From NCBI RefSeq assembly GCF_026210795.1, contig NC_089430.1, forward strand, positions 4,774,001-4,838,000: DNA of 64,000 nt, read 5' to 3'. Below the pieces are notes generated by a model. That model did not search any database and was not told where the DNA came from. It saw only the letters and a list, made by a program, of their open reading frames with translations. A program made the position numbers and the translations under genes. Of this stretch, positions 1-44,984 are shown piece after piece (the stretch's first letter is position 1; each line of letters starts with the position of its first letter). This DNA is from Rhizophagus irregularis (taxonomy: Eukaryota > Glomeromycota > Glomeromycetes > Glomerales > Glomeraceae).

Positions 1-737
1 ATTTATTTATTTAATTATTGATTTATTTGCATGAACGAGTTTAAAAAACTAGATTTTATGATTAAGTTTATTAGCATAATGGAATACGATCGATAAATCA
101 ATAACTTATTTGACGAAGTTAAATTATTTAATTGGACAAAAAAATTAAAAATTAAAATTTTGTAATGCATAATGCATATGCATGTGTTTAGTACAAAATT
201 TTGCGCCAGAGAGAACAATAGATAAAATTCTTTTTTTTATTGTAGCTTTTTTTTTATTGTGTAGGATAAAATAGGAAATTGAAATTATACGATCCTATAA
301 AAAAATTTCTGGGAAAATTGATCAATTTTCTAAAAAATTTTTATAGGGAGAATTCATGTAAAAGAACAGTTCCAGTTTAATTTTGTTATTCTTGAAATTT
401 ATTTATTTAGTTATTGATTTATTTATAAACGAGTTTAAAAACTAAATTTTAAGATAAAGCTTAATAGCATAATGAAAATATGCACGGTAAAATCAATTAG
501 TTTATTTGACGAAATTAACTTTTAATTGAACAAAAAAATTAAAAATTAAAATTTCATTATGCATAATGCAGAGTACAAATTTTGTGCGATAATTTTTTTT
601 TATTGTGGCTTTAATTGTGTAGGATAAAATAGGAAGACAAATGTTGTTTAGTACAAAATTTTGCGTCATAGATAATAATAGAAAAAAATTCTTTTTTTAT
701 TTTGGCTTTTTTTATTGTGTAGGATAAAATAGGAAAT
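1..737 (+). repeat. Three degenerate tandem units ending in an intron-like TTGTGTAG motif
   Basis: A unit of about 250 bp starting ATTTATTTA-TTGATTTATTT at position 1 recurs near 400 with the same order of motifs (GAGTTTAAAAA, TTTATTTGACGAA, the run TTAAAAATTAAAATTT and then GCATAATGCA). A third, shortened copy covers about 643-737. All three end with the shared string TTGTGTAGGATAAAATAGG (about 257, 615 and 715), which reads like a polypyrimidine tract plus AG acceptor. The block lies directly before the hairpin-intron array and may be a diverged part of it. No coding frame is visible. Confidence 0.6.
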
Positions 738-890
738 CCATTATTCATAAAAAAATCAATAAGTTCTCTTCTATAATTCTATTACATGCGAAACTTTAAT
801 TTGTTTATGTTCGAATGCATGCATGAATGAATTAAAAAACACCAGATTTAAGTTTAATATCAAACTATCTTGTCTATGTATCTAATAAGG

Positions 891-2318
891 ATCCGAAACG
901 GGTATATGATAAGTTTCGCATCTCATTACATACAAAACTTTAACATTTTTATAAAAGAACGTTTCTAGCGTTCTTTATTCTTTTTTTTTTGTAGGTTTCG
1001 GTACTCCAAGGTTCCCGAAACGGTAAGTTTCGCAACATCTTGTTGCGAAACTTTAAAATTATTTTTTTATTTTTTCAAAGAACGTTTCTAACGTTCTTTA
1101 TCTTTTTTTTTTGTAGGTTCGGTACTCAATATTTCCAAACTTTAACATGGTAAGTTTAAACTTGAATTTTTTTATATTTTTTTTTCGCTAAGAACGTTTT
1201 ACTTATGTTCTTATTTTATTTTTTTTAGAGAACGGTAAGCCGGGGAAAGGGATTTTATTTTTTTAAAAAAAAATCTTTTCGTTAAGAACGTTTTACTAAC
1301 GTTCTTTTTTTAAATTTTTTTAAGGAACGCTTCCTGGACCATTCAAGGTGAAATTGATGCAAGGTAAGCTAGGGGAAGGGATTTTTTTTTTTCTCTTTTT
1401 TTTATTTTTTTTCGCTAAGAACTTTTACTGACGTTCTTCTTTGATTTTTTTAGATGGATACTATAACCAAAGAAATGCAAACCCAACGAAAAATTTATAA
1501 TACAAAAAAAAAAATAACGTGGTGAGAACGGCTTCCTAAGATGGAACGGATCAAGGTAAGCCGAGGGAAGGGGAATTTGTTTTTTTAAAAATTTTTTTTC
1601 GTTAAGAACGTTTACTAACATTCTTCATTGTCTTTTTTTTTAGAGAACGGCTCCCCGGACGAAATGGATATGAGGTAAGTTGGAGAAAATATAATATATT
1701 TTTTATTAAACAAAACGTTGACCAACGTTTCGATTTTATTCTTTTGTAGGTCCACGGTCCTGTTAGTTTCTGGGCGGAATTTGAAGGTAAAACTTCAAAA
1801 TTCTTTTTTTTTTTACTTTATTTAAATGAGACATTAGCTAACGTTTCAATTTTATTTTTTGTAGGTTTTCAGCTTTCCGGACGCCTCTTGGACGGAATTT
1901 CGAAGGTATTCCTTCGAATAAATTTTTTCTATTAATTTTATCTAGTGAACGTCATGTTCCTTTTTTTGTAGGTCCAGAACACCGCCAGACTCCATTTCAA
2001 AGGTATACCTTTCAAAATTTTTTTTTATCGAATATTAACTAATGTTCATTTTTCTTTTATTTTAGGTTCTGGGTTCCCATTTTGCTAAAAGTCTTCTGGA
2101 TGCTGAACTGTAATGGTGAAGAACTTCGAAGGTAAACACTTTGAAGTTCTTTTTTTGTTTTGCTTTCTTTAACGAACATTATACTAATGTTTGTTTTCTT
2201 TATGTTTAGGTTCCGGGCTGCTGGGTTATATATTTCAAAGCTGTTTATTTCAAAAATTTTTTCCATTTGTAGATCTGTTTGTTGGAATCGAACCAACTGG
2301 AACAACATCCAAACCATG
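891..2318 (+). other. Array of micro-exons separated by short hairpin-bearing introns; unrecognised spliced transcript
   Basis: About eleven consecutive GT...AG introns of 63-94 bp can be drawn at 902-994, 1023-1116, 1150-1228, 1235-1324, 1364-1453, 1556-1643, 1675-1749, 1787-1864, 1906-1971, 2003-2065 and 2132-2209. Most have a GTAAG-like donor and a T-rich tract before the final AG. Most of the intervening exons are only about 28-41 nt; one may be as short as 6 nt and two are longer. The exon lengths are not multiples of three and several carry stops, so a continuous protein is not evident. The exons look related (GGTACTC, CTTCCTGG, CCGGACG and GGAATTTGAAG-like strings recur), suggesting growth by tandem duplication of an exon-intron unit. 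Each intron carries an inverted repeat around its branch-site motif (CTAAC, CTAGC or ACTAAT), and several have the donor in a second hairpin. It could be a noncoding RNA gene, an effector-like repeat gene in decay, or an introner-derived array. Confidence 0.6.
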
Positions 2319-2340
2319 GTAAGAAATGTGGATTTTTTTA

Positions 2341-3480
2341 TAAATGTATTATATATGTAATATTATAAAGGAAAAATTTACTTTATGAATTTATAATTAT
2401 TTTTTATTCCTTGCTTTGGTTCTAGAATTGTTATTCTCGTTTCTAGTTTGTTCAATAACCTATTCCTACAAGTCATGTTTAAAATAATAAAATAGCTATA
2501 AGCAATACCTTTTAAGATAATAAATTTGGATTTTCACAGAGAATTGACGTTAACAATCGTTTTACTGTAGACTTATTATTAAGAACAAAAAAAAAATTAG
2601 AATTATTTTATTTTATCAAATATTCTTTAAACGTTTGATTAATTAAGCAGTTCACCAAATGCAACTAAGAATCAAGTACAACTGATGTTTTGCATAGTAA
2701 TAATTTTACTTAATAAATATATTTCATTATCATTTTAAAATAAAGAATTATAAATTATATGGTATTTTTCTGTACTGTAACTCATTTATTCAAGAAGTCA
2801 CGTTTAATAATAAGTAGAAACTGAACATGCATTTTTTTTACATTTTCGTTTTTATTAATTGCATTATATTAATGAACTTTTTTTCGATATAAAAAATAAA
2901 TTTTATGAATTGTATTAGATTTCTCGTACCATTTAAAAAATCCACATGACAAGCTTTTTCCTGTAGTTTGATTAAATTATTGATGATAATTATAAAGAAA
3001 GCATTTTAATATTTTGGTTGTACTTTACAATTTAATAATTTTAAGAAGTTTATTGTTGTGGTATTGTTCACTTTTAATTATAGAAATCGTTAAAAAAAAA
3101 ACTGAAGAAAGAAAAATGTCTAAAATAATAAAAAATTAAAGTATCTATAATACTGCACTGTATAAGTTTATTTAAAGAGGTTTTAAATATAGTGTAAAAA
3201 TGATATGACTTTAGTACGTAATTTGATGAGTTTACATCATTTATTTTTTTGCTAATGAAATTTGTGAAAATTATATAATATTTTATCCCTGTTTAATTTA
3301 ACAAATGGGGTACAAAAAGTTTTATATATGTATTACGTATATTAATACATAAAATATTTAATTTGTAAGTTATTTTTATAATATTATCTATTATCTATTA
3401 TATATAATAACTAGCCAATATTTTTTTGGGGAACGTATTAATTAATAGCATCACGGGATCAACGATCGGGGATCATATTA
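2341..3480. other. AT-rich non-coding stretch
   Basis: No open frame, splice-like pattern or clear repeat was seen here apart from short A/T runs. Confidence 0.5.
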
Positions 3481-18952: not shown

Positions 18953-19861
18953 TTAATCAATTAATGCATTAATACTAATTGACTTTTTAGAACGTTTTGG
19001 AGAAGGAAGAGGACCTAGAGTTTCTTCATTTTCATCACATCGTCTTTTTGAACTAGTTTCGTTGTCTTGTGATTCGTTTGTGGAACCCAATTCATGACTA
19101 TTTTCTATTTTTTCATCGTCATCACTATCAACAACAATTGGTTCTATAGTCGTTGTATTATTAGAAATTTGGACGGCAAAATTAATTTCTTCGTTTCTTC
19201 TTGGTTTTTCCAAGGCAAAAAACAAATTTCTATTATGTTGGGTATAAATTTCGTACCATACTTTATGAATGTAACTACTGGCGACTTGTGATTCGTTAAC
19301 TAGTTTCTCTACTTCGAGGAAAGCTCTTATTTCTTTTTGACAAAATAATCGGAAGAGCATATAACCATTCAATCCTTTAGTTTTTGTATTAGGATCCAAT
19401 GGTTGTTCATGACTTTGTAAATTTTGTAAATATCCCGGGTATTTCGAGATTAATACTTCTGCATTATGAGCAATCTTATTATTATTTAATAGATCAACAA
19501 TAGATTGTTGTTCGATTGAAAGTACTATAGGTTCTTTACTTTCTTTTCTACTTTTTGCTTGTCTTTTTTTCTTATTTATATTTGTATTTGTACTTTTCTC
19601 TTTTTTTTCATTGTTTTTTATTTTAATACTCTTTAAGATAATGGCATTTTGTTCCTTTATAGTATCCACAGTACTATTCAATTCGGCATTTTGTTCCTTT
19701 ATAGTATCCACAGTACTATTCAATTCGGCATTTTGTTCCTTTATAGTATCCACAGTACTTTTCAATTCGGCAATTTTTTTAAGAAGTTCTTTAATAAGTT
19801 TGGAAAAATTATCATTTTTTTCATTTTGTTTCCCCTCGTTTTTTTTATTTTTTTTGCTCAT
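18953..19861 (-). CDS. Coiled-coil protein with HMG-box-like domain, 302 aa
   Basis: A single-exon frame from ATG at 19861 to the stop at 18953. Residues 1-28 are strongly basic/polar. Residues 31-72 are three exact or near-exact 14-residue units of the form AELNSTVDTIKEQN (42-bp DNA repeats at about 19643-19768), equal to two heptads each, so a parallel coiled coil is expected. Residues 83-108 are lysine/arginine rich. Residues about 163-220 (LNGYMLFRLFCQKEI, then VASSYIHKVWYEIYTQHNRN, LFFALEK) follow the three-helix spacing of a divergent HMG box with the conserved N-terminal aromatic motif and central Trp. Residues 240-249 (IEPIVVDSDDDE) look like a SUMO-interacting motif. SKRR and PKRSKK near the C-terminus look like nuclear localisation signals. 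A nuclear DNA-binding, dimerising role is inferred, not shown. Confidence 0.75.
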   Translation of the reverse strand: MSKKNKKNEGKQNEKNDNFSKLIKELLKKIAELKSTVDTIKEQNAELNSTVDTIKEQNAELNSTVDTIKEQNAIILKSIKIKNNEKKEKSTNTNINKKKRQAKSRKESKEPIVLSIEQQSIVDLLNNNKIAHNAEVLISKYPGYLQNLQSHEQPLDPNTKTKGLNGYMLFRLFCQKEIRAFLEVEKLVNESQVASSYIHKVWYEIYTQHNRNLFFALEKPRRNEEINFAVQISNNTTTIEPIVVDSDDDEKIENSHELGSTNESQDNETSSKRRCDENEETLGPLPSPKRSKKSISINALID

Positions 19862-19904
19862 GATGGTGATTCCTTCCCTATCAAAATAATTGAAAAACCA
19901 GGTC

Positions 19905-19912
19905 TTTTTATA
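19905..19912 (-). promoter_or_regulatory. TATA-like element upstream of the coiled-coil/HMG-like gene
   Basis: TATAAAAA on the reverse strand, about 44 nt before the ATG at 19861. In such AT-rich DNA a TATA match has low specificity, but its context (ACTATAAAAAGACC in a less AT-rich patch) and spacing are suitable. Confidence 0.35.
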
Positions 19913-20940
19913 GTAAAATGGGCTTAAAAAAAAGATGTTCTAATTTTTTTATCTAATTTGTCTATTATTGGCAAGAATCAACAAACTTAAATGGTGGGCA
20001 ATAAGCCTAATCATTTTGTTTCTTTAAATACTTTTTGAGGAAAGAAAACAACTGATTTTCAAACAATAATCATGAGAAGATCAGCAATCTAATTTGTTGG
20101 TGTTACAAGTCCAACTAATAAAGTAGTTTTATGGTTATTTTTGGCGCTTTATTGTGTTTATTAATATTGTTCTTTTGTAATATTGGTGACTAGTTTGTAC
20201 TAGCTAAATTTTATTTATAATCAAAATACTGAACACATATTTGCATTTTTTTTGTAGTACAAAATGTCCTGGTTATACTTGCCCCCATTAATGGGGTTGG
20301 GAGAATCCCATATCCTATCCCATCCCAAATTTATTTTATTTCAGAAAGGAGTAACCAATGACAAGTACATAAAAGAAGTAAACAACTATTACTAGTGGAT
20401 AACTATACAATTAAGAGTGCTGTGGTTAAAAATCCTGTAAACTAGATTTAACATCATGTCTAAAAGACCTCACCCTCCGCCCATCCCAAATACCCATTTA
20501 ATCCCATTTGCGTCGGAGTCACGTGACGTTACACAAATTTCCAAAAGGAAATTTTGCTCCCGGAAAATTTTGGAAAATCTCGAAATTTGGTTACACAAGT
20601 TTCCAAAAATGGAAATTTCATACCGATCATTTAATTCTGGCCTGAATTAAGGAATTAAGATTTAGTCTCATCCATCCCATTTAAATTTACAAATTATGGC
20701 CGAATCCGAAAGTCCAAAACTTAGGTCCGAAACCTCAGCCAAAATTCGAAAATCAAGCCAAAATCTGAAATTGTGGTCGGAGTACGAAAATCTGGACAAA
20801 ATCTTTATTACGTGGTCCGAAATATAATTTCTTTTTAATGGGGTCCGAAAGTTTTTGTAATTCCGGCCAACATTGTAGTGCCGGCCAGAATTATGCCCTG
20901 CGTGACTTCGGATAAAAGTTTAGCCACCAGGTAAGAATGT
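19913..20940. other. Non-coding; 20450-20930 is a degenerate repeat rich in CCGAAA words
   Basis: From about 20500 the sequence is filled with variants of CCGAAATT, GGCCGAA and TTTCGG in both orientations, as in subterminal parts of hAT-like elements, and similar words resume at 21320-21470 beyond the kinase fragment. This suggests that the fragment is enclosed in or captured by an element. No clear terminal repeats were located. 19913-20450 has nothing recognisable. Confidence 0.4.
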
Positions 20941-24427: not shown

Positions 24428-27400
24428 CAGTGTTCGGCAAATGACTTGAAATAAACAAATGACTCAAATGACAAGTCATTTGTCATTTGTCATTTGCAAC
24501 TCAAATGACCTGTCATTTAAGTCATTTGAAAAATATTAAATATTCTGAGAATTTTTATTAATTATTTTGTTTATTTTAATTAAGAAAACAAAAATATTAA
24601 AACAAAATTGGTTTAATATATATAATCAAAAAAGTTCCAATAGTAGTAAAGATTTTTTAATCACGTGATTTTGTTATTATTTTACAGGTTATTATTTGTT
24701 AATAATATTATTATAGACAGGATTATTTCACTTATAATTATTTCACTAATGATCATTTTATCCACACAGATAAAAGTTAATTGATTTTGCAATAAAATAT
24801 TTAATTGTAACACATGTAGTGGATCCCATTTTTCACCATTTTTATATATAATTGTTGTCTTTATTTAATCATAAGATGGCCATAATATTTATTTATGCAT
24901 ATAATTATATAATAAAATTATATATAATAAACAAGTTAACATTAAACATGGCAGGGAGCTATAGTCATAGTATAATTAGAACTGTAATAATTCTGACTTT
25001 TTTTTTAATTAAGTTGGTTTATACTACCATACAGTATCATAATTATTATGATAAATAGTTTTTAAGATTTAAAGAGAATTTCTAAATTTTAACTGGTGGA
25101 AAAATTACTGGTAGATCATGTGATTGTGTATTAAATATTCATGTGATTTATTATGATGATGCAATTTCATTTGGCTCGCTTCGCTCGCCGGGCTTTTCTA
25201 GCCAAACCATAACTTTCACTTTATTTGCAAAATTTTTGATTATATTTAACATATCTATAAAAAAAATGAGAAATTACTCTTAACTAGCTATTAACATAAT
25301 TTTTTTCTCATTTGGTAAAGGATGATCATTTTCGGTTTATTTTGCTTGTTAATCATTTTTGGCTTAGTTATTTCACTTGTTAATCATTTTAAGGTTAATT
25401 ATCTTGATTGTTGTTTATTTTTTGGTTTAAAAATAAAAAAATATATATATCAGAATATGTGATTAACTTTAAATAACAATACAGAAAGATTGTTTATTAC
25501 TTGATAAAGCATTTATTTAATATTTACCATCATCATTTTTGGAATTACGGCTCTGGAAAAAAATTTTTCATGATTATATTGTAATAAAACAATTCTACTA
25601 TCCGATTGTTAATCATTTTTAGTTCTGGAAAATTATGATAACTGAATATCATAATAATAAGACAATGATAATGAAATTTTACCATTTAGTTGTTGTTTAT
25701 TGTTTTGTTTCAAAATAAAAAATTACTTGATATAACATTTATTTAATTTTATCATCCAATTGTTGAGAAAAAAAATTTTATGATAACATTATAATAAAAC
25801 AACAATCTTATTATCTGATTGTTAATCATTTTTAGAATTACTACCCTGAAAAAATTTTCATGATAGCATTATAACTAAAGTTGCCTGCCAAAACTCTACA
25901 GGCTATTGTCGAAATGTCGAAACTAAAACCTGTAGAAATGCCGAAATGCCGAAATAGTTTCGACATGTCAAAATTGTCAAAACCTAAAAATATTACGTTT
26001 CACGTAATAACTCGGCGTCCAATGATCATAGAAAGATGCACCATAGCTCGTTGGAATCGTCTCATAACGACGAGTCGAATGGTGGTTAGATCGTTTTTCT
26101 ACGATCACTGGATGCCGAGATATTGAGCGAAACGTCAAAAATCAGCATTTTGTATTTTGCGATACTGCGCCATTTGACGTTTCACTTAATAACTCGGCAT
26201 CCAATGATCGTAGAAAGATGCACCATAGCTCGTTGGAATCGTCTCATAACGACGAGTCGAATGGTGGTTAGATCGTCTTTCTACGATCACTGGATGCCGA
26301 GATATTGAGCGAAACGTCAAAAATCAGCATTTTGTATTTTGCGATACTGCGCCATTTGACGTTTCACTTAATAACTCGGCATCCAATGATCGTAGAAAGA
26401 TGCACCATAGCTCGTTGGATTCGTCTCATAACGACGAGTCGAATGGTGGTTAAATCATCTTTCTACGATCATTGGATGCCGAGATAATAGACGAAACGTC
26501 AAATGGCGCAGTAGCGCAAAATACAAAATGCCGATTTTTGACGTTTCGCTCAATATCTCGGCATCCAGTGATCGTAGAAAGACAATTAGCAACCATTCGA
26601 CTCGTCGTTATGAGACGATTCCAACGAGCTATGGTGCATCTTTCTACGATCATTGGATGCCGAGTTATTAAGTGAAACGTCAAATGGCGCAGTATCGCAA
26701 AATACAAAATGCCGATTTTTGACGTTTCGCTTAATATCTCGGCATCCAGTGATCATAGAAAGACGATTTAGCCACCATTCGACTCGTCGTTATGAGGCGA
26801 TTCCAACGAGCTATAGTGCATCTTTCTATGATCATTGGACGCAGAGTTATTACGTGAAATGTAATATTTTTAGGTTTCGACAATTTTGACATGTCAAAAT
26901 AGTTTTGACAATTTTGACATGCCGAAACTCCCTAATTTTGGCAGGGAACTTTAATTATAACGATAATGTAATGACGACGATAATGAAAATTTACCATTTG
27001 ATTATTGTTTATTTTTTGGTTCAAAATAAAAAAAAAATGTATCTATATTTAAATAAGTAATACAAACAAATTGTTTATTTACATAATATTAAAATTTGTC
27101 ATCCGGTTGTTGATCATTTTTGGCTAACAAAAAAATTATTCAGTTTTCACATGATTTGCTAAAAATTTTATCCCATAATTTTTAAGCAAGAAAGATCATT
27201 CTATATAAGTGCAATATCACCCTATGGGTGGGTGGGTGGCGCGTCACGTTATTGTTATGACTTGAAATGATTGACATGTCATGATAGGTTAACGTTAACT
27301 TAACGTTAACATAAGATTAGTTTTTGAGTGATTTCCATTTTAAGATGCTGATCCCCCATCTTTGGTATTGATTTGCTGATTATATAAATACATTTCAAAT

Positions 27401-29628: not shown

Positions 29629-30303
29629 GTAGAGCTCCGCAAACTGACCTTACAGATCGGGTGACCCGACGGGGTGACCCAAAATATTCAGGTCAGGTCA
29701 TCAAATTCATGACCTGATACGGGTCGGGTCAGTGCTGGTCGGTACCCGACCCGACCTGTTGACCCGACATATATTTGGGTCAAATAAATTAAAAACGCCG
29801 AAACTAATAATGATTCCGGCATTTTTACATGTAAAATCGAAAAAAAAACGCCGAAACTGATAGTTTCGGCGTTTTTACATGTAAAATCGAAAAAAAAACG
29901 CTGAAACTGATAGTTTCAGCGTTTTTTACATGTCAAATAAAAAAGAAAAATGCCGGAACTAATTATTCCGGCGCTTTTACATGTAAAATCGAAAAAAAAT
30001 GCCGAAACTATCAGTTTTGGCGTTTTTACATGTAAAATCAAAAGGAAAAATGCTGAAACAAATAGTTTCAGCGTTTTATATATAAAAACAAATAGTAAAA
30101 AACGTTACAAAACGTTTTTTTACAATATTTAATAATAAAACTTTGGGTAACCTGAGTTACCCGAAGTGACCCGAATACTTTCAGGTCAAATGGGTCGGGT
30201 CGGGTCAGAACGGTTTACCCGACCCGACCTGACCTGAAAAAAATTTCAGTTCGGGTTAACCAGGTAACCCGACCCGACCCGACCCGACCCATGCGGAGCT
30301 CTA
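29629..30303. mobile_element. hAT-like element in the kinase tail, rich in GGGTCGGGTC words
   Basis: Ends TAGAGCTCCGCA and TGCGGAGCTCTA are perfect inverses. Both subterminal arms are tandem runs of GACCCGACC/GGTCGGGTC. TTCGAA lies next to both ends (about 29620 and 30306), but a clean 8-bp target duplication is not visible. The centre holds a hairpin satellite at 29791-30085. No transposase. Confidence 0.75.
29791..30085. repeat. Six tandem hairpin units of about 48 bp
   Basis: Each unit has an inverted repeat of the type CGCCGAAACT...AGTTTCGGCG followed by a spacer TTTTACATGTAAAATCG that is itself palindromic. Arms differ between units (CGCCGAAACT, CGCTGAAACT, TGCCGGAACT, TGCTGAAAC), mostly with matching change in the partner arm. 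This lies inside the hAT-like element and is not a CRISPR array. Confidence 0.8.
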
Positions 30304-44369: not shown

Positions 44370-44780
44370 TAGACTCTTTTTTTTGTTTTGTTGTCCTTTT
44401 TTTTATTTCATCATCCTTTTTTTTGTTTCGTCCTCCTTTTTTTTAGTTTCGTCCTTCTTTTTTTTTGTTTTGTCATCATTTTTTTTGTTTTGTTGTCATT
44501 TTTTTTTAGTTTCGTCCTCCTTTTTTTTTAGTTTCGTCCTCCTTTTTTTTTAGTTTCGTCCTCCTTTTTTTTTGTTTTGTCATCATTTTTTTTTAGTTTC
44601 GTCATCATTTTTTTTGTTTTGTTGTCATTTTTTTTTAGTTTCGTCCTCCTTTTTTTTTAGTTTCGTCCTCCTTTTTTTTTAGTTTCGTCCTCCTTTTTTT
44701 TTGTTTCATCATCTTTTTTTTATTTTTTTACTTCATCATCATTTTTTTCGTTTCGTCATCTTTTTTTGTTATCTTTTTTT
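44370..44780 (+). repeat. Tandem array of (T)n-AG-TTTCGTCCTCC units
   Basis: About eighteen units of about 22 bp, variants of CCTCCTTTTTTTTTAGTTTC and CATCATTTTTTTTGTTTTGT. The plus strand is almost purine-free. Many units contain a polypyrimidine tract followed by TAG, resembling 3' splice acceptors. No coding function inferred. Confidence 0.8.
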
Positions 44781-44984
44781 TCATCTTTTTTTTAGGTCTA
44801 TCTTCTCTCTGTCTGGGTCTTCTCTTTATTAGGTCTTCTTTTGGCCTCTCTCTCTTTAGGTATGTGGGTTGGAACTCGCAAAAGGTTGAACAAGATATAT
44901 GAGAGTCATTCCTAAAAAATAGGGAAGGTTACATATATCATTTTTATCTAATATTAAAGGTATGTTGAACTGTTTTCGTAAAGC

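Follow-up and report, generated by a model that had tools for sequence, protein, structure and literature searches.

What kind of sequence consists of very short exon-like pieces alternating with introns whose branch motifs lie in hairpins? The question is raised by positions 891–2318 of the window, that is, the whole 64,000-nucleotide stretch analyzed here (C2:4774001–4838000 of a 146.7-Mb Rhizophagus irregularis assembly in 32 contigs). The explanation that we favor, with moderate confidence, is that we are dealing with the decayed remnant of a noncoding exon–intron satellite dispersed through the genome, many complete members of which are the cargo of non-autonomous PlavakaB-like DNA transposons, and whose palindromes would have been copied as DNA and left to drift.

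The original prediction described eleven consecutive short introns, and eleven intron-like units are indeed found, with the features collected in the table. All eleven end with a T-rich tract and an AG following a branch-like place, at positions ranging from 994 to 2209, and the exon-like pieces between them are 6 to 102 nt long. A GT donor is readable in ten units (the first positions listed for units 2 to 11), exact CTAAC is present in four, and CTRAY in seven. That most units carry a branch hairpin translates into seven of eleven with a branch-side inverted repeat, for arms of at least 7 bp with G.U allowed, and the five inverted repeats originally quoted are located at the branch hairpins of units 2, 4, 7, 10, and 11. 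Such structures are far more frequent than in 100 dinucleotide shuffles of 891–2318, with seven perfect Watson-Crick hairpins of arms ≥7 against a mean of 0.42 and a maximum of 3, and 11 against 3.79 (maximum 10) when G.U is allowed. A second class of hairpins, missing from the original prediction, covers the 5′ splice site at four donors (units 2, 8, 9, and 11) and pairs the exon end with the intron start; that of unit 11 spans both, and in some relatives of the array the donor GGTAAA is wholly paired. Hairpin cores with up to two substitutions number 10 in window 1–2400 and 21 in window 2401–64000. The GC content of the window is 0.21–0.38 in 2-kb steps, and searches of the window return no Rfam family at the gathering score and no tRNA with ARAGORN.

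Features of the array in the window (forward strand; positions are those of the window)
Feature	Position	Strand	Remarks
Whole micro-exon/intron-like array	886..2335	+	blocks 886-1233, 1276-1459, and 1574-2335 match other family loci
Unit 1	954..994	+	branch hairpin 954-976, T tract, TAG acceptor; GT donor not readable
Intron-like unit 2	1023..1116	+	donor-side hairpin 1025-1053; branch hairpin 1077-1099
Intron-like unit 3	1150..1228	+	branch hairpin 1189-1213; motif changed
Intron-like unit 4	1235..1324	+	branch hairpin 1284-1306; preceded by 6-nt exon-like piece 1229-1234
Intron-like unit 5	1364..1453	+	branch motif CTGAC; hairpin partly decayed
Intron-like unit 6	1556..1643	+	branch motif CTAAC; one mismatch in hairpin
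Intron-like unit 7	1675..1749	+	branch hairpin 1713-1730
Intron-like unit 8	1787..1864	+	donor hairpin 1780-1799; branch motif CTAAC
Intron-like unit 9	1906..1971	+	donor hairpin 1899-1918; branch motif lost (1944-1971)
Intron-like unit 10	2003..2065	+	branch hairpin 2030-2047
Intron-like unit 11	2132..2209	+	donor hairpin 2118-2152; branch hairpin 2171-2195

The array belongs to a dispersed family. Compared with its own genome, 891–2318 gives 265 matches (itself included), and the matches listed fall at 38 other places with 65–88% identity, in agreement with the suggestion that the hairpin had been copied repeatedly and would be found elsewhere. The 41 loci studied are the window, these 38 places, and two array elements picked by their ends. 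Complete family members are flanked by 16-bp terminal inverted repeats, CATCGGGAAATTTTTT, which begin with CAT and occur exactly 48 times forward and 53 times in reverse in the genome (0+0 for the reversed-letter control). With up to two substitutions, at least one end is present in 28 of the 41 loci and both ends in 10, a count that includes the two loci chosen by their ends and many stretches that end before the element's other end; 13 loci show no terminal repeat within the stretch examined. The window copy resembles the family only over 886–2335 and no terminal inverted repeat was found for it, which suggests an old fragment.

Both ends were read by eye in 12 elements, including two longer ones that bear a transposase; 11 of them have identical two-base flanks, the exception being C9:2691629. 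The two longer elements, L043 and L044, are 6.4–6.5 kb long, have the ends of the array elements, and contain pieces of a Plavaka transposase: PF18759 is above the Pfam cut-off in both (E = 6.6e-25 and 4.7e-10, respectively), and L044 has a C2H2-like stretch below the cut-off. They are the two examined among at least five end pairs of that size, and array matches lie inside at least one other such pair (C21:2883890-2890438). The single array element checked for open frames, L045, has none of transposase size. PlavakaB, in the available part of its description, has CATCA..TGATG ends and 2–3-bp target duplications (PMC12730594). The array carriers, with CAT-type ends, 2-bp flanks, and Plavaka in longer relatives, hence look like non-autonomous PlavakaB-like DNA transposons. 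In terms of that partial description, they have in common with PlavakaB the 2-bp target duplications, the CATC..GATG termini, and the Plavaka transposase, the latter present here in L043 and L044, whose ends are those of the array elements; they differ by termini in CATCGGG instead of CATCA and by the exon–intron array, which is absent from that part of the description (PMC12730594). One array element also has many CCGAAA/TTTCGG inverted repeats concentrated in a single stretch (L006:1530-1990).

The hairpin core is itself widespread: the genome contains 1,121 instances of the pattern AACGTT-N(1-3)-CTAACGTT, against 16 of the reversed pattern. Since the 41 loci contain 152 exact and 785 loose cores, a rough extrapolation (1,121 x 785/152) suggests a genome total of ~5,800 intron-like units, or perhaps several thousand. 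One could then suppose an introner-like element, where the mobile unit is the intron itself, inserting copies with their own splice signals. This would fit the arrays on C1, where exons are unlike between arrays and introns are alike, and the fungal examples, which are repeated introns with stable folding in the portion of that work available (PMC9024468). It fits poorly with the position of the isolated cores, as all 15 of those read by eye on C1, picked from the first 100 places listed of the 1,121, are in micro-exon arrays or remnants of them (some poor), outside recognizable genes, and no gene insertion is seen among them. Exon and intron are moreover duplicated jointly, and whole arrays travel between transposon ends. 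We consider an introner-like element, one of the possibilities originally put forward, very unlikely, and the cores read give no support to introners spreading into genes. Further array families exist. The 46 matches of the L069 array all fall outside the places of the first family, and seven other full-length copies are 93–96% identical (e.g., C25:679429 and C7:5138023), which points to a separate dispersed micro-exon array family, probably recently active. The array of L065 has 109 matches, many inside first-family loci, and is hence a relative of that family.

The assignment of the units to introns depends on the sequence around the hairpins, as the hairpin itself is nearly symmetric, whereas its flanks are not. 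Among 188 oriented cores (101 others with ambiguous loops being left out), the first AG is found 15–19 nt from the hairpin in 89 sites on the branch side and in 19 on the mirrored side, with T fractions of 0.58 and 0.20, respectively; sites without AG within 60 nt number 36 on the branch side and 12 on the other. When the majority sequences of each of two young groups of copies are read by eye, a donor, a branch motif, and an acceptor are seen in most of 32 units, and GTAA donors are present in 513 of the 669 parsed introns, the parser having favored such donors. The signals of U2 spliceosomal introns are thus present, i.e., GT donor, branch motif, T tract, and AG at a fixed distance. On the strength of these signals, the units are taken as intron-derived, and they probably are, or were, recognized as introns when transcribed and could be spliced.

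A simple palindromic minisatellite, with GT, branch, and AG motifs arising by chance, would agree with the 36 of 188 cores that lack a branch-side AG and with the trains of alternating hairpins CGGAACGTTGGCTAACGTTCCG / CGAAACGTTTTTAACGTTTCG, ~50 bp apart, of L066:200-1000 and L067:370-1480, which have neither exons nor splice acceptors. A palindromic satellite is what the original prediction had set as its own refutation, and to that extent it applies; but the polarity is fixed, with AG at 15–19 nt and the T tract on one side only, and GTAA donors predominate even if helped by the parser. The fixed intron polarity implies that the array is not a simple satellite, and we see this reading as extremely improbable. 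The train of L067 starts with a donor-type hairpin, as if hairpins had filled one intron.

Copies resembling spliced products are not apparent. A first junction pattern (one mismatch allowed) has 36 sites in the genome against 7 for the reversed control, of which 30 are unspliced acceptors, and no joined copy is found among the four sites read of the remaining six; a second junction pattern has 0 sites in the genome. Ordinary introns, represented by ten gaps between family-matched exons in actin and chaperonin loci (L071, L073, L074, and L076), are AT-rich, and in this small set no AACGTT hairpin is seen by eye. These four loci are among six on which automatic intron parsing proved too loose to be used.

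The exons do not behave as coding sequence. Exon lengths modulo 3 are distributed as 158/118/149 among 425 parsed exons, so that the frame is not kept, and stops occur in 158, 168, and 171 of the 425 in the three phases, none of which is much freer than the others. Stops per codon (0.037–0.040) are rarer than in shuffled exons (~0.06), and this in every phase. The commonest length is 42 nt (98/425), and 88 of these 98 exons are open in phase 0, which makes an ancestral 14-residue repeat possible. One may therefore think of a family of micro-exon protein genes carried by transposons, with the 42-nt exon encoding a 14-residue repeat and most members now being pseudogenes, and an element on C17 does have a first exon that is open by eye. 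Yet lengths of 40, 41, 42, 29, 31, 32, and others break the frame, no phase stands out for its lack of stops, and none of the junction sites checked is an as-if-spliced copy, which makes this origin quite improbable. The micro-exon genes of schistosomes also consist of runs of very short exons, but these keep the frame, and the array exons break it. As judged from the sequence, no reading frame is maintained along the arrays, and the exons are best described as noncoding.

The original prediction also held that the arms change along the array while pairing is kept. This is the case as regards complementarity: in 22 of 22 loci, own arms pair on average better than swapped arms for both hairpins, and at most 5 of 500 swaps equal the own-arm score in 15 loci when the donor hairpin is considered and in 10 when the outer branch arms are (the 22 loci, which are related, are those of the 41 with most parsed introns). 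When the core is kept constant and the outer letters may vary, outer branch positions 1–3 form Watson-Crick pairs in 111, 81, and 88 of 130 sites, against 65, 38, and 48 expected, a count in which a few cores with self-complementary loops may appear on both strands. Position 1 alternates between G-C (55) and A-T (56); position 4 is weak (63 versus 54), and nothing clear is seen further out. The excess is smaller in the 369 donor contexts, with 207 versus 188 expected at position 1, 200 versus 173 at position 2, 273 versus 229 at position 5, 170 versus 129 at position 7, and 117 versus 78 at position 8, little at position 3 (326 versus 319), and none at positions 4 and 6. Arms are also lengthened by one base on both sides together, GAACGTT..AACGTTC being found beside GAAACGTT..AACGTTTC. 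The arms are thus complementary unit by unit, and are kept so by descent.

Complementarity of this kind could result from structure-controlled splicing, in which hairpins would mask or expose the donor and the branch site, making the splicing of a long transcript (coding or not) a matter of RNA folding, with the pairing maintained by RNA selection. Many units do have the donor and the branch site within or next to a hairpin, the outer arms covary, and the intron together with the exon end folds stably. The wobble pairs originally cited hold for the chosen examples, but they do not extend to the family: over 785 sites, G.U and A.C number 192 and 222 at the two central CpG pairs, and 245 and 271 at all six core pairs. 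The same is found for the three outer branch pairs (32 versus 42, 130 sites) and, over 369 sites, for the two variable pairs on the inner side of the donor hairpin (130 versus 149), even if these two differ when taken singly (89 G.U versus 50 A.C at one, 41 versus 99 at the other). Compensatory change, as in structured RNAs, is present, with A.C mismatches found as often as G.U pairs. Folding of 120 of the 669 parsed introns, each with its exon end, gives a mean z of −3.13 on the + strand, a stable predicted folding such as that of introner-like elements, and of −3.26 on the − strand, i.e., both strands fold equally. The hairpin trains of L066 and L067 further indicate that such hairpins exist without splice sites.

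The decay of young copies points the same way for most sites. Substitutions were counted in five copies of a first group and six of a second, with stems chosen loosely and homopolymers left out; L034, one of six in the first group, was omitted for its poor alignment (0.90 to the majority). Conservation of the acceptor AG does not exceed that of exons (5/247 A sites and 11/247 G sites changed). Branch-stem A/T sites change less than exon ones (20/3079 versus 40/2194, p = 1e-4), but at a rate similar to that found elsewhere in the element (54/7769, p = 0.9). An earlier non-CpG stem rate of 2/912, from stems defined by the exact core in the majority sequence, was replaced because such a selection favors conserved columns. 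The dominant changes are C-to-T and G-to-A at CpG, which neutral decay of methylated CpG would yield. The donor hairpin departs from this picture: its CpG changes number 23/263 in the exon-side arm against 37/216 in the intron-side arm (p = 0.008), changed cells in the 369 donor contexts are 90 and 186, respectively, and the donor GT is seldom changed (0/151 and 2/178). Plain neutral decay does not explain this unequal decay, and the slower exon-side arm and the rare GT change could reflect either constraint around the donor or uneven methylation. It slightly lowers our confidence in the favored explanation and slightly raises the probability of structure-controlled splicing, which we nevertheless hold to be unlikely. 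Present copies mostly seem free of selection on RNA structure, contrary to one of the causes first proposed, and the sequence analysis found no sign of a working splicing switch. Because most of the copies studied are probably dead, selection for structure-gated splicing may still operate in a few active ones.

We return to the preferred reading, that of a dispersed exon–intron satellite. Its unit would combine an exon-like and an intron-like piece and bear two short palindromes, located over the donor and over the branch motif, respectively. Units would multiply through tandem duplication inside the element and through transposition of the element. In active lineages, the palindromes would be copied and held exact at the DNA level, probably by template switching, with one arm corrected from the other during replication; after insertion, copies would drift, chiefly by C-to-T and G-to-A at CpG. 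Template-switch copying would explain why the arms covary by Watson-Crick pairs with no wobble intermediates, and why both of them can be lengthened by one base together. The hairpins have the look of palindromes inherited as DNA and at present in decay. A combined reading, that of a mobile self-expanding splicing array, would have dozens of hairpin-capped introns per transposon with sequestered donor and branch site, a long noncoding RNA processed solely upon hairpin opening, and palindromes regenerated by template switching; we find it rather unlikely.

Similar systems have been described in part. Fungal introner-like elements and the sister stwintrons of Hypoxylaceae share with these arrays repeated intron-like sequences that have internal symmetry and a branch site hidden within a predicted stem (PMC9024468). 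As described there, stwintrons interrupt gene transcripts and have one long terminal stem, whereas here one finds tandem arrays of noncoding micro-exons, many in transposons, with two short hairpins per intron (PMC9024468). The SP7-like effector genes of Rhizophagus, compared by description, also have repeat units and were considered for this reason; they were set aside on gene structure, since the available part of their description gives a conserved intron before the first repeat and not one intron per repeat (PMC11333574). Perfect stems and multi-base compensatory changes without G.U intermediates are shared with template-switch hairpins, which have been described for RNA genes (PMC8794818), the pattern here being consistent with them. 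No description of such arrays was found in the literature searched, which lies mostly outside subscription papers.

Intron birth, transposon cargo, and palindrome maintenance are joined here in one place, in a 147-Mb fungal genome. Whether perfect stems with compensatory change can arise without RNA selection is a standing question that becomes testable. The covariation observed here, having neither wobble preference nor strand bias, indicates that covariation alone is no proof of functional RNA structure. Gene predictors may mistake such arrays for multi-exon genes, and if the reading as a mobile splicing array were true, new introns would arise ready-made.

Other repeats are found in the window. 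Directly upstream of the array, at positions 1–735, blocks are present in two to three diverged copies in direct orientation, spaced by ~390–460 bp and with TTGTGTAGGATAAAATAGGAA pieces. A 42-bp tandem repeat (19643–19777) lies within an open frame on the minus strand (18953–19939) and encodes repeated VDTIKEQNAELNST, and a GC-richer stretch (25995–26859) has ~4 copies of a 182-bp tandem repeat. A long array of the 22-bp TTTTTTTTGTTTCGTCCTCCTT (44377–44793) shows higher-order periods of 107 and 129. At 29791–30092, a tandem array with a unit of ~51 bp that is itself palindromic (GCCGAAACTAATAGTTTCGGC) constitutes a further hairpin satellite.
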